A program made the translations under genes and the position numbers. A stretch of DNA of 64,000 bases, taken from the NCBI RefSeq assembly GCF_014269205.2, contig NZ_JABWRY020000001.1:992001-1056000 (forward strand). The letters run 5' to 3'. The stretch comes from Pseudomonas kermanshahensis. Its GTDB lineage: Bacteria > Pseudomonadota > Gammaproteobacteria > Pseudomonadales > Pseudomonadaceae. Positions 5,262-10,311 of the stretch are shown here, in pieces; position 1 is the stretch's first letter, and each line of letters begins with the position of its first letter. Under the pieces are notes generated by a model that was not told the DNA's origin, made no database searches, and saw only the letters and a list, made by a program, of their open reading frames with translations.

Positions 5262-5485
5262 GGCTGCTGCTCCTGCTGCGCCTGCATCTGGTTCGCCAGC
5301 ACAAGCGCACCGAGCAGGGCCTGCTGGCGCTGCTGCAGGCCCAGGTACTCCCGGATCGCCTTCACGATCAGCGAGTTCATGGAGCGATCGTCCGCGTCCG
5401 CAGCCTTGGCCACCTCGTCGCGCATCCCATCAGGGAGACGCACGACGAATTTGTCAGCCGTGCGCGAGCCGTATTCAAAGGCCAT
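5258..5485 (-). CDS. Arc-family DNA-binding protein
   Basis: This 75-residue ribbon-helix-helix protein has a beta strand with DKFVVRLPDGMRDEVAKAA followed by RSMNSLIVKAIREYL, the Arc/Mnt dimer fold that contacts DNA with the paired strand. A Gln-rich tail ends the protein. It probably represses a phage promoter; the operator is not identified here. It overlaps the CsrA-fusion gene by 11 nt and the next gene by 4 nt. Confidence 0.8.
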   Translation of the reverse strand: MAFEYGSRTADKFVVRLPDGMRDEVAKAADADDRSMNSLIVKAIREYLGLQQRQQALLGALVLANQMQAQQEQQP

Positions 5486-5897
5486 GGGACACCTCCAAAG
5501 GGTTCGCTGTCACGTTGTGCACCACCGGCTGCTCCAAGGCTTCCAGGCGCAGGGCGGTGTCGATCTCCTGATCCAGTTCTTCGGCAGAGAACCAGTTATC
5601 GCCGCGCACCACCAGCAGGTCTTCGTCGGGATCTTCGATGCGCTCGCGATTACGCAGCCAGCGATACCGGCGGGCATCGGCAGCCATGCGGACGTGGTCT
5701 TCGATGTCGAACGCTGGCGCCTCTTGGGCAGTGCCTTCGGCGACACGGCGCTGGTGGATCTCCTCGCGATCAACCACCACTCCACGCGGGGCCTCGATCC
5801 CCAGGCGGACCTGGCAGCCGTTAACCTGGGCCACGCTGACCCGGATGTTGCCGCCGATGATGACGGCCTTGCCGATGTTGCGGCTTAGCATGAGCAT
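5475..5897 (-). CDS. CsrA/RsmA domain fused to a phage-specific C-terminal domain
   Basis: The protein has 140 residues. Residues 1-58 match the CsrA fold: MLMLSRNIGKAVIIGGNIRV, then QVRLGIEAPRGVVVDREEIHQRR. This includes the Arg-rich first strand and the VDREEI(H/Y)QR strand that form the RNA-binding face for GGA loops. Free CsrA is about 60-65 residues; here about 80 more follow (ARRYRWLRNRERIEDPDEDL). The C-terminal part resembles a module found on other phage early proteins, of unknown role. A phage CsrA could rewire host GacA/Rsm control or bind phage RNA. The AAGGAG before its start contains GGA, so autoregulation is possible. Confidence 0.8.
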   Translation of the reverse strand: MLMLSRNIGKAVIIGGNIRVSVAQVNGCQVRLGIEAPRGVVVDREEIHQRRVAEGTAQEAPAFDIEDHVRMAADARRYRWLRNRERIEDPDEDLLVVRGDNWFSAEELDQEIDTALRLEALEQPVVHNVTANPLEVSHGL

Positions 5898-5982: not shown

Positions 5983-6462
5983 TTATGCCTTGAACAGGCT
6001 GAATACTTCGCGCTTACTTTTGCCTACCATTCCGGCGATTGCTGAAACTTTCACTTGTGCGTCGGTGTGCCGCTTAATCTGGTCAACATCAAGTTCTCCG
6101 AGGCGAGTATGTTTCATGACCTTCTCGCATTTACTGAACTCGCGGCGAACACCTTGCATTGCGTTATCAACAGCGATGAATGCCTGGTCGCTCGGCGGAA
6201 CAATCCGATAACCCTTGCCGCGCACGCTAACAATGTAGATTTGATGTTGAGTTAACAGTGCTTCCTTGAACTGCTCTACACGGTCCAAGATTATGAACTG
6301 ACAGTTGACCATTTCCTTTGCGGTGCTGGGCTTCGGCAAGTTCAGCGCCCACTCAAGCCAGGCGTGGCTGATGAGCTGGCCATCCTCGAACTTGTCGGCA
6401 AGGAACTGCTCGACGGCCTTGTCCAGGCTCCAGCTGTTCGGCTTGAGCGGCACGACAGGCAT
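5983..6462 (-). CDS. Hypothetical protein with winged-helix-like segment, partner of the RAMP-like gene
   Basis: This 159-residue protein starts at 6462, sharing one base with the stop of the RAMP-like gene (TAATG). That indicates coupled translation. The middle part (FIILDRVEQFKEALL, then IYIVSVRGKGYRIVPP) resembles the end of an OmpR-type winged helix. The C-terminus is basic and helical (VSAIAGMVGKSKREVF). I do not recognise the family. Tight coupling suggests it works with the preceding protein and perhaps with the upstream array RNA. Confidence 0.55.
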   Translation of the reverse strand: MPVVPLKPNSWSLDKAVEQFLADKFEDGQLISHAWLEWALNLPKPSTAKEMVNCQFIILDRVEQFKEALLTQHQIYIVSVRGKGYRIVPPSDQAFIAVDNAMQGVRREFSKCEKVMKHTRLGELDVDQIKRHTDAQVKVSAIAGMVGKSKREVFSLFKA

Positions 6463-7028
6463 TACAGCACCTCCACGGCGAAGCGGCCGAATTTCGGGCG
6501 GTAGTCGCCGACACCGCAGTACTGGCCAGCGTCCTCGAGGCACTTCAACACCTGGTCGCGGTCGATGGACTCCTGGTCGTAGGCGATCTCGCAGACCACT
6601 GCCCAGGAGCGGAAGAGGGGGCGATATCGGGTGATTCGGGCGGTGCCGACCTTCACCGAGCGGGCATCGTAGAACTGCTCATCCCACAGGCCTTCTACGG
6701 TGCGCGGGCCTTCGTAAATGATCGGGCAGCGGGTATCCATGATCTCGACGGAGCGCTTGAGCTGGGTTCCCATCTTCGAAAGTTTGCCGCCTGCAACAAG
6801 TGCGGATTCGATGTTGATGCCAGGCAGGTATGGCCCGATATCTTCGGAGAAGTACAAGCCGCCGCGCCATTCGCTGCGAGCGATAAGCTCGTGGTCTTCG
6901 TCAGACTTTTTGCGCTTAGAAGTCAGTTGCTTGTGCGCTTTGGTCAATTTGTTCAAAGGGTCGGCGAACACGTCGGCGTGAACAAGAAGCGGACGGGTGC
7001 CTACGATTTTAACTTTCAAAGTTTGCAT
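6462..7028 (-). CDS. RAMP-like (Cas5/Cas7-type fold) phage protein, tentative
   Basis: This 188-residue protein starts at 7028 after TTGGAG. The first strand (LKVKIVGTRPLLVH), then YLPGINIESALVAGGK, resemble the first RRM strand and the 'PG..(I/L)..AL' helix of RAMP proteins. Near the C-terminus, AGQYCGVGDYRPKFGRF resembles a glycine-rich G-loop. A basic KLTKAHKQLTSKRKKS segment could contact nucleic acid. No nuclease residues are evident. It is the first gene downstream of the structured repeat array at 7135-7733 and on the same strand. The RAMP link comes from motif reading only and needs a profile or structure comparison; otherwise it is a conserved hypothetical. Confidence 0.5.
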   Translation of the reverse strand: MQTLKVKIVGTRPLLVHADVFADPLNKLTKAHKQLTSKRKKSDEDHELIARSEWRGGLYFSEDIGPYLPGINIESALVAGGKLSKMGTQLKRSVEIMDTRCPIIYEGPRTVEGLWDEQFYDARSVKVGTARITRYRPLFRSWAVVCEIAYDQESIDRDQVLKCLEDAGQYCGVGDYRPKFGRFAVEVL

Positions 7029-7134
7029 GTGAATCTCCAATAGATAGCTGCGTGTGCCTTTTCGCTCAATGCGATGCACGGTGCTTTGCGTGTTGGAACT
7101 TCAAAACAACCTCGGTGGAAGTTGCTTTGAGGTC

Positions 7135-7733
7135 GTCACTGGATTCAGCGCCAGTGACATCGCTGCGAGTTATCGCCCTTGCCGTGCCCGGCCGTGGCTC
7201 GCCATGCCTTACCCGGCCTCACCCCAAGTGCTTTCGCACCGCAATGACCACTCTATGAATGGGCATTACGCTGACCAGCAGCCCTTGCCGCGCTCTACCC
7301 GATCGCGCCAAGCCTCGCCTCGCACTGCCTCGTGGTACTCGGTACCGGAAAGCACCCTCTGCGAAGGTGCTGACCGCTACGTTGTAGCCCTTGCCACGCC
7401 ATGCCCAGCCAAACCACGCCCAGGGCTGCCCCGCAGTGCCGTGCCTCTTGATGGCTATCGCCACCGGACTACGCTCCCGAAGAAGTGCAGGCCGCTGATT
7501 ACAGCCCTTGCCTCGCCTAGCCATACCCCACCGGACCATACCCCACCGGGCCATGCCTAACCGCATAGTGCTATTTGCACTGATCTGCCCTCCCTAAGAA
7601 GGGCAGACCGCTGTAAACAGCCCTTGCCTCGCCATGCCAGAGCCAGTCCTGCCTGACCCAGCCCAGCCATACCCAGCCGAACCTCAAGATGCTTTCGCAC
7701 CGGACAACGCCCTCACCGAAGGCGCTCGCCGCT
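7135..7733 (-). ncRNA. Tandem structured repeat array (5 units plus terminal half unit), probably RNA
   Basis: Read on the minus strand, units begin with AGCG(G) at 7733, 7612, 7496, 7378 and 7272, with lengths 121, 116, 118, 106 and 108. A final half unit starts at 7164 and ends at 7135. Each unit has a junction hairpin, a second hairpin (often an 8-bp stem and 8-nt loop) and a short hairpin with GAAA, GATA or similar loops. A run of 9-13 GGNNN pentamers ending GGCAAGGGC follows. Junction stems differ but stay paired: GCTG/CAGC, GCTAC/GTAGC and GCGA/TCGC. Short-hairpin stems also covary: GTGC/GCAC, TGGC/GCCA and GGTAC/GTACC. Unit lengths are not multiples of three, so it is not coding. It starts at the LuxR-type stop codon and leads into the RAMP-like gene. 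Confidence 0.8.
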
Positions 7734-7734
7734 G

Positions 7735-8124
7735 CTATGCCACCAATTGTTGCTCAACCCGCCGTGCGGTAACTCGAAGCTCAACCCGCTTCTCGCCGCC
7801 GCTCCGGCGAACGCGAAGGAACTGGTCATCGCTGACTGCGCCGTGCACCGCGAGGACTGCGACCAGGATCGCGGCTGGCGAGATCATCCCGCGCCGAATC
7901 GCCTCGCCAACCAACGCTGCCCGGCGATTCACCCCAAGCTTGAACATCGCGTTGCTGACACGCTTCTTGACCGTCCCAGGCTCGATTGCGAAGCGCTTGC
8001 CGATTTCCTTATCGGTACGACCCGCAGCCACGTCCAACACAAACGCCAACTCCCTTGGGGCTAGACCGCGGCCAAGGTGTCCAATCCAACCCTCGGTGCT
8101 GGTGATCTGTGCTGCTGTGGTCAT
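7735..8124 (-). CDS. LuxR/GerE-type HTH protein
   Basis: This 129-residue protein starts after a GGAG site. Residues 20-85 form a GerE-like tetrahelical HTH (LAPRELAFVLDVAAGRTDKE, then PGTVKKRVSNAMFKLGV), without a receiver or autoinducer domain. A hydrophobic stretch (ISPAAILVAVLAVHGAV, about residues 87-103) may be a membrane anchor. The tail is basic. It is the first gene of the early-left operon, directly behind a CI-type operator. The array begins at its TAG stop codon. It probably regulates phage or host transcription. Confidence 0.72.
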   Translation of the reverse strand: MTTAAQITSTEGWIGHLGRGLAPRELAFVLDVAAGRTDKEIGKRFAIEPGTVKKRVSNAMFKLGVNRRAALVGEAIRRGMISPAAILVAVLAVHGAVSDDQFLRVRRSGGEKRVELRVTARRVEQQLVA

Positions 8125-8248: not shown

Positions 8249-8923
8249 TCAAAGGAAGGTGCTTTTGGGCATCTTTCCATCTACCACAGTGCCCACGATC
8301 TCCCACTCACTATCCATCGCAATGGTGGCGAATGCCGGGTTGAGAGGCCTTAGATAGAATCGCCCCGCGTCCCTCACGAATTGCTTGAACGTTGCCTCAT
8401 TCGAGTCAACCATTCTTGCAACCACGTACTGGCCAGATCTAGGCTCGGTCTCTGGCGCAACAAGGATCAGAAATCCCTCAGGAAATGAGGCGCCATTTTG
8501 GCTAGTCATGGAGTTGCCTACAACCCTCAGCCAGAAACCATCATGCCCAGCCCAAACATCTGAGGAATGAGACGGGCAAGCTTGCAGGTTAATAGCATCC
8601 ATCGCCTCAGAGGCTAGCCCTGCCTGAACCCAGCTTATCTCTGGATACATAAAGTACCTTGTGGGCGCTAGTGCCGAGGCAACGTTAGATATCTCATCCG
8701 GCGAATCTGTAGGCCTACCTATCTCGCCCATCAGATAAGCGGCAGACACGCCCAGCGCGTCTCCGATCTCCTTAAGACGCTTATGCCTGGGCGTGTTCCT
8801 GTCGGACTCCCAGGACTGAACCGACTGAGGTGTCACGCCAAGGCGGCGAGCCAGTTCGGATTGATTGAGGCCTAGCGATTCGCGCGCCAGAGCAATCATT
8901 TGACCAGTAGTTCGTTTTCTCAT
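8249..8923 (-). CDS. CI-like repressor (HTH + S24 autoprotease)
   Basis: The protein has 224 residues. Residues 8-65 are an HTH_3 domain (LNQSELARRLGVTPQSVQSW). Residues 95-215 are a LexA/CI S24 peptidase domain with Ser in GNSM and Lys in ATFKQF as the catalytic dyad, and a probable Ala-Gly cleavage site in WVQAGLAS. It should hold the prophage silent and self-cleave on RecA activation. It is divergent from the cro-like gene. No Shine-Dalgarno precedes the ATG, and a TGTAAT hexamer ends 11 nt upstream. The mRNA may therefore be leaderless, as for lambda cI from PRM. Confidence 0.93.
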   Translation of the reverse strand: MRKRTTGQMIALARESLGLNQSELARRLGVTPQSVQSWESDRNTPRHKRLKEIGDALGVSAAYLMGEIGRPTDSPDEISNVASALAPTRYFMYPEISWVQAGLASEAMDAINLQACPSHSSDVWAGHDGFWLRVVGNSMTSQNGASFPEGFLILVAPETEPRSGQYVVARMVDSNEATFKQFVRDAGRFYLRPLNPAFATIAMDSEWEIVGTVVDGKMPKSTFL

Positions 8924-10078: not shown

Positions 10079-10311
10079 CCACAACAACCAGCGAGCTGGG
10101 CGAAAAGGTCATGGCCCGCCTGCGTGTTATCGAGGGGTTAGCCTCCATCCTGATGGAGAACGACAGCCTCAAGGGGGATGCGCAGGCCGGGTTCGCTCCT
10201 CAACTCGATCATCTCAGCGAATCCACCATCCATGAATCGATGTTCATGCTGGCCGACCAGGCGTCAGACCAGTTGCTTCAGCTGATGAATGCAGCGGGGG
10301 ATAGCCAATGA
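10075..10311 (+). CDS. Hypothetical phage protein (78 aa)
   Basis: This small acidic, helical protein (VMARLRVIEGLASILMENDS) has 4-nt overlaps on both sides. No family is recognised. It resembles its two neighbours in size and character, which suggests a cluster of short regulators or host-takeover proteins. Confidence 0.55.
   Translation: MTTTTSELGEKVMARLRVIEGLASILMENDSLKGDAQAGFAPQLDHLSESTIHESMFMLADQASDQLLQLMNAAGDSQ

Follow-up and report, generated by a model that had tools for sequence, protein, structure and literature searches.

The locus lies on the minus strand of the window, i.e. the whole stretch of 64,000 nucleotides of Pseudomonas kermanshahensis DNA that was analysed, and comprises a regulator gene, a tandem array of five structured units and two overlapping genes. 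These features are listed from 5' to 3', with V1 to V5 denoting the putative vrRNAs and NN the variable dinucleotides of their YNNGG repeats:

7735..8124, minus: phrog_3282 regulator gene (LuxR/sigma-r4-like HTH), directly 5' of the array; PHROG E 1.5e-49, Pfam GerE E 4.9e-7
7690..7733, minus: leader half-tail, hairpins 2 and 3 with no guide; from sequence, fold and a loose text pattern
7622..7686, minus: putative vrRNA V1 guide tract, 13 YNNGG repeats, NN GA-TC-TG-AT-TG-TG-CA-AG-TG-CT-AT-GA-AA
7567..7621, minus: V1 tail, three hairpins
7506..7565, minus: putative vrRNA V2 guide tract, 12 repeats, NN GC-TA-AT-CC-GG-AT-CC-GG-AT-TA-GA-AA
7450..7505, minus: V2 tail, hairpins 1-3 assigned by comparison; the single-sequence fold favours a different pairing
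7389..7448, minus: putative vrRNA V3 guide tract, 12 repeats once trimmed, NN GA-AC-AC-GG-AG-TG-GT-TT-TG-AT-GT-AA
7334..7388, minus: V3 tail; locus L001 has an identical tail
7283..7332, minus: putative vrRNA V4 guide tract, 10 repeats, NN GA-AG-GA-GA-TT-GC-CG-AG-GC-AA
7228..7282, minus: V4 tail; L001 has an identical tail
7177..7226, minus: putative vrRNA V5 guide tract, 10 repeats, NN GG-GA-CG-AA-AT-GA-AC-CG-AC-AA
7135..7176, minus: V5 (terminal) tail, hairpins 1 and 2
7098..7134, minus: terminal hairpin 3, a long stem replacing the short third hairpin; compensatory changes among 14 terminal tails
6462..7028, minus: vipr gene, 188 aa, phrog_4652; PDB 36pp_D E 2.6e-52, PHROG E 1.2e-78
5983..6462, minus: vap-like gene, phrog_5926, its start overlapping the vipr stop; PHROG shared with SUSP1 and LESphi2

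Beyond vipr and the vap-like gene on the 3' side lies a gene with a CsrA domain and a C-terminal extension (5475-5897, minus; E 2.7e-16). A scan for promoters and terminators performed no better than on shuffled sequence, returning 2 promoter-like sites against 1.2 expected and 2 terminator-like sites against 2.1.

The product of the gene adjoining the array matches a solved structure, PDB chain 36pp_D ('SUSP1 Vipr protein'), along its entire length (residues 1-188, E 2.6e-52), and phrog_4652 is common to both proteins; Pfam, NCBIfam and PADLOC give it no name. The window's vap-like gene and the gene 3' of vipr in SUSP1 and LESphi2 all belong to phrog_5926, the products from the window and SUSP1 being 28% identical (E 6e-18), and from its position we infer that the SUSP1 gene is vap1. 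A PADLOC match of the vap-like protein to SIR2 (E 0.00096) was weak and is not credited. VIPR (Viral Interference Programmable Repeat) was presented in a bioRxiv report of April 2026 (PMC13142463) as a system composed of a small ancestral RAMP protein, a vap gene and vrRNAs in which 9-16 YNNGG repeats precede a structured 3' tail; the system reads double-stranded DNA through the NN dinucleotides with one base skipped; a literature search found no other paper describing such a system.

The vipr reading frame is open in the window, and relatives of its product were found by tblastn in 134 named phage records. Close relatives occur in 24 viral contigs (72-100% identity), in 2 genome contigs (Pseudomonas juntendi and P. 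mendocina) and in 4 of 398 genomes of the genus, the window's own included. More distant homologues (32-39% identity) were seen in 6 plasmid records from Azospirillum and Bradyrhizobium (H81-H86), and the P. aeruginosa prophage LESphi2 (L027, OQ594955.1) carries a Vipr relative annotated as hypothetical with three guide tracts 5' of it. Comparisons were made across 31 loci (L001-L032 without L025, which is the window's own) plus the window; L028 and L030 share one array and may be one genome, and the Vipr of L001 is 100% identical to that of the window.

The five tracts of YNNGG repeats (GGY/NN) in the array contain 10-13 repeats each, within the range of 9-16 given for VIPR, and score 22.5-36 on a simple scale with a threshold of 13, a score reached by chance by 16 tracts in 200 Markov-shuffled copies of the array region and by 6 in 5 shuffled copies of the window. 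Two other tracts in the window score 13, a level that chance attains in the shuffles, and were treated as noise. The GG is preserved in 11/13 repeats of V1, 12/12 of V2, 10/13 in the stretch counted for V3, 7/10 of V4 and 9/10 of V5. Tracts of this kind are present in all 31 loci and the window (132 tracts, 96 distinct NN series). The information of each unit lies in the dinucleotides of its tract, and the hairpins are its tail. The original prediction had described tandem hairpin units, with direct repeats now found to be spaced at 106, 106, 117 and 116 nt; the hairpins are real, but the YNNGG tract, i.e. the other half of each unit, had been overlooked. The half unit that it placed at the end of the array exists as well, but is the most 5' element (7733-7690) and has counterparts in siblings, and the structured region continues past the proposed boundary to about 7098 by way of the long terminal hairpin.

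All of the hairpins named in that prediction are present at their minus-strand positions, including the two with 8-bp stems and 8-nt loops (7607-7584 and 7158-7135) and one with a TTCG loop (7490-7469), and the five tails fold better than their shuffles (z -6.57, -3.17, -3.33, -2.76 and -4.55). Covariation was assessed on an alignment (A1) of 61 internal tails, all distinct, drawn from related loci as well as the window. Of 88 unique tails, 27 were left out; 19 of these were terminal, 2 were false tract ends and the other 6 were internal (L004:2608, L012:2045, 2163, 2408 and 2623, and L021:2841), the last group chosen by eye as near-duplicates except for the degenerate-looking L012:2408. Paired cells amount to 93.2% in these 61 tails against 72.7% after shuffling, and the covariation score is 0.522, which none of 500 shuffles reaches (shuffled score 0.160); displacing the partner by 1-3 columns brings it down to 0.103 or less. 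The proposed covariation is upheld by this score, whilst two of five measures are not clearly above shuffles: pairs changed on both sides number 10 against 9.5 shuffled, no clear excess, and further pair types 31 against 27.9, with 30 of 500 shuffles reaching 31. RNAalifold recovers hairpins 1 and 2 of the 61 tails unaided, with double changes in 11 of 16 pairs. The third hairpin was scored per sequence because its register shifts; a perfect stem of at least 5 pairs is found in 55/61 tails, a count for which the best hairpin was picked and no control made. In terminal tails (n=14) hairpin 3 is a long stem, and across the entire tail 9 of 28 pairs show double changes. A pseudoknot has been reported for the tail of the SUSP1 clade (PMC13142463).

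In 26 of 32 arrays a guide-less half-tail comes ahead of the first guide, as judged by a loose text pattern without a control; the pattern is absent from L020, L021, L022, L023, L026 and L029. It follows from this leader that most arrays apparently have one tail more than guides, i.e. seem to consist of N guides and N+1 tails.

Structured hairpins of this kind might also sequester an RNA-binding protein as a sponge, one candidate being the CsrA-like protein encoded at 5475-5897, whose gene is the third 3' of the array (E 2.7e-16). Against this, the loops of the tails differ among relatives, which makes a case by argument rather than by measurement, and we give this explanation a negligible probability. 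In Rfam at the gathering score, the sole match in the whole window is the gyrA RNA motif (RF01740, 59230-59315, plus strand, 72.8 bits), and no family matches the array. The earlier view that no named RNA family has such an architecture has since been overtaken by VIPR (PMC13142463), whilst the suggestion of a guide or scaffold RNA for the adjacent protein was right in kind, because the adjacent gene is a Vipr homologue and the units are built like vrRNAs. Very probably, the array at 7135..7733 encodes the vrRNAs of a type-II-like VIPR system in a Pseudomonas-type prophage. The RNA is not undescribed: the array is a further case of VIPR, a kind first described in April 2026 (PMC13142463), and we place the locus among the VIPR systems of that report's P. 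fulva prophage clade.

The reading rule was examined with the NN series of all arrays. In a first test of the 96 series, best matches averaged 0.753 with one base skipped, against 0.705-0.710 in controls (skips of 0, 2 or 3, shuffled NN and parallel reading), in which single short guides also reached up to 0.92. For a refined test the series were cut to their last 13 repeats, the last repeat was removed and series of fewer than 9 repeats were dropped, leaving 89 of the 96 guides; these were searched against the window and each of the 31 loci, array tracts being masked. A match of at least 90% to another locus was obtained for 13/89 guides with skip 1, and for none with skips of 0, 2 or 3 or in any of five NN-shuffled sets; at a threshold of at least 83% the count was 24/89 with skip 1, against 2, 0 and 2 with skips 0, 2 and 3 and 4, 1, 1, 0 and 0 in the five shuffled sets. 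Taking the codon position from the longest covering ORF, the skipped base falls at position 3 in 18 of these 24 matches, at position 1 in 4 and at position 2 in 2, an excess at position 3 with a simple binomial probability of 3.6e-5, although related guides are not independent. At the level of predicted pairing, the published 1-nt-skip code (PMC13142463) is reproduced in the window's clade.

Among the 13 strong pairs, the match is near chance (0.31) for the repeat adjoining the tail, rises to 0.69 one repeat further in and reaches 0.88-1.0 over repeats 2-10, the figures for all repeats but the last being partly a product of selection. Since the last repeat played no part in choosing the pairs, its low match is a fair sign of non-reading, and this repeat seems to be unread. 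Neither the leader half-tail nor the seemingly unread last repeat appears in the main text of PMC13142463.

Guides also recur between arrays, V3, V4 and V5 being found in L001, V3 in L010 and L011 and V4 in L008, L010 and L011, with V1 and V2 recurring in none of the 31 loci compared; by this recurrence VIPR arrays look like mosaics. This recurrence bears on a further explanation, that the array is a cis-acting, put/nut-like antitermination element of the leftward operon. The array is indeed a structured RNA between two genes of the same strand and no terminator-like site was found inside it, but its NN series are variable and have skip-1 matches elsewhere, the guides recur at differing places in different arrays, and the neighbouring gene is vipr, all of which make antitermination exceedingly unlikely. 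No finding favours either antitermination or a sponge.

For the guides of the window itself, the predicted pairing gives candidate targets for V3 (an ORF6N antirepressor), V2 (a KilA-N gene) and V5 (a phrog_3282 regulator or a methylase), those of V1 and V4 being less certain. V3 matches exactly (20/20) in 10 viral stretches; in 8 of these the longest covering ORF is antirepressor-like, with the site at the gene start and the skip at codon position 3, and in the other 2 a longer ORF on the opposite strand is listed. An ORF6N domain was detected in one V3-target protein (E 1.5e-12), and one scrambled V3 returned no match, this control scan covering V3 only. With up to 2 mismatches, V3 has matches in few genomes of the genus, 4 of 199, against none for the reversed control and none in its own genome; a protein search places 3 of these 4 in ORF6N relatives, the fourth lying in none found. 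Relatives of the ORF6N gene occur in 7 of 298 genomes of the genus, where V3 scores 18, 18, 18, 17, 16, 14 and 13 of 20, and the window's own genome holds no relative of this target at E 0.001.

The V2 site is palindromic, lies in the KilA-N gene (L001 protein, E 2.6e-19) with the skipped base off codon position 3, and is matched 20/20 in L033, 19/20 in L001 and 17/20 in L010, L011, L038 and L057. V5 has exact matches in two stretches, where the gene encodes a DNA methylase domain, and also matches at 17/18 in L038, L041 and L043, 16/18 in L036 and L037 and 15/18 in L040. At the site in L041 the protein belongs to phrog_3282, and the frames in L036 and L037 end alike; other frames are listed for L038, L040 and L043. 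The gene directly upstream of the window's own array also belongs to phrog_3282, and there V5 matches at most 11/18. V4 matches exactly (18/18) in 14 stretches, in 10 of which the longest ORF is of one recurrent family, with the skip at position 3 and no match in Pfam or PHROG; these 14 matches may represent one event in a conserved gene. The exact pattern of V1 has no hit in the viral contigs, and its best match of 18/22, reached by 2 of 2000 NN shuffles, occurs in a phrog_14643 gene, at 5 of its 14 loci, with position 3 skipped. Sites co-occur in some stretches, L041 and L037 carrying those of V1, V3 and V5 and L038 those of V2, V3 and V5; L041 has no megablast match among named phages.

No VIPR tract was found within the stretches examined (L033-L077), and the targets in L033-L063 are accordingly not established as VIPR-bearing rivals. 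L065, L066, L068, L070 and L076 share contigs with the VIPR loci L011, L010, L009, L001 and L002, respectively.

These matches also bear on whether the array, a VIPR array by descent, could now be defunct or reused, e.g. in regulating the prophage's own genes. The targets of V1 are imperfect only and some GG positions in the tracts are degenerate, as this would predict; degenerate GG is, however, also seen in strongly matching sibling guides, V2-V5 have exact or near-exact matches, and the vipr frame is open, with a product 72-100% identical to those of 24 viral contigs. Self-matches in the window outside the array are low, the best for V1-V5 being 15/22, 15/22, 14/20, 14/18 and 13/18. Loss of function or reuse is, on this evidence, improbable. 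Two more phrog_3282-like genes occur in the window's own genome (G000:C1:3003609-3003968 and 1824670-1824885; L079 and L080), perhaps in other prophages, and around them V1-V5 match at most 14/22 (V2) and 13/18 (V4).

Targeting in the opposite direction was assessed with 86 sibling guides, which gave 7 matches of at least 80% to the window against 3, 1, 0, 1 and 2 in shuffled sets. The window's CI repressor gene (8274-8308) is matched 23/24 by a guide of L014, its vipr (6964-6995) 21/22 by guides of L010 and L011, and an early gene (10225-10253) 18/20 by a guide of L007. Between siblings, a gene of L003 that is CsrA-like by eye is matched 22/24 by a guide of L010.

With the published VIPR systems (P. 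fulva clade and SUSP1 type II) the locus shares Vipr and a neighbouring gene of the vap family, vrRNAs built of YNNGG repeats and ending in a structured 3' tail, location in a prophage and skip-1 matches to related prophages, lysogeny regulators being among the targets and some guides matching other VIPR genes. In the P. fulva prophage clade, 48 of 66 vrRNA targets are in resident Pseudomonas prophages (PMC13142463). Whereas SUSP1 has one guide 5' of vipr and three 3' (PMC13142463), the five guides of the window are all 5', between the phrog_3282 gene and vipr. Class 1 CRISPR-Cas resembles this arrangement in its tandem guides parted by structured elements, which in most of the arrays analysed here outnumber the guides by one, and in that the VIPR protein is of RAMP type according to PMC13142463. 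For the Vipr of the window, a putative RAMP fold is suggested by its sequence match to the solved chain 36pp_D. Unlike CRISPR-Cas, however, the window has no Cas family in the 8 proteins scanned, its tails vary and covary rather than being identical, and its code is one of dinucleotides with gaps. TIGR-Tas proteins have a Nop domain; Vipr is of a different protein family, and no Tas-type domain was found in the 8 proteins scanned. The likeness to TIGR-Tas (PMC12045711) is that phages carry guide RNAs in a tandem array together with a protein associated with them.

By analogy with the published system, the precursor would be cut into about five vrRNAs that Vipr would bind, the NN dinucleotides would pair with double-stranded DNA, skipping one base per two, and the bound complex would repress the target gene, so that a lysogen might silence early and regulatory genes of related phages, whether in superinfection or in conflict between prophages. 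For the window, this mechanism and role rest on homology and sequence matches. It is quite possible, if somewhat short of probable, that the array encodes superinfection exclusion in RNA against early and lysogeny genes of heteroimmune siblings, some of them related to the prophage's own neighbouring genes but diverged enough to escape self-targeting; the cassettes, of CRISPR-like layout (N guides, N+1 tails and a half-tail leader), would then swap guide-tail units by recombination, and the siblings would in turn target CI and vipr.

The analysis provides an independent, sequence-only confirmation of a guide-RNA code that is unusual and was described very recently, and it decodes natural guides, with their candidate targets, from a family of temperate phages of Pseudomonas type. 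Predictions follow, namely that V3 would act at the start of an ORF6N antirepressor gene and sibling guides on CI and vipr, together with an anatomy for checking: the leader half-tail, the apparently unread last repeat and the putative mosaic exchange of guides.
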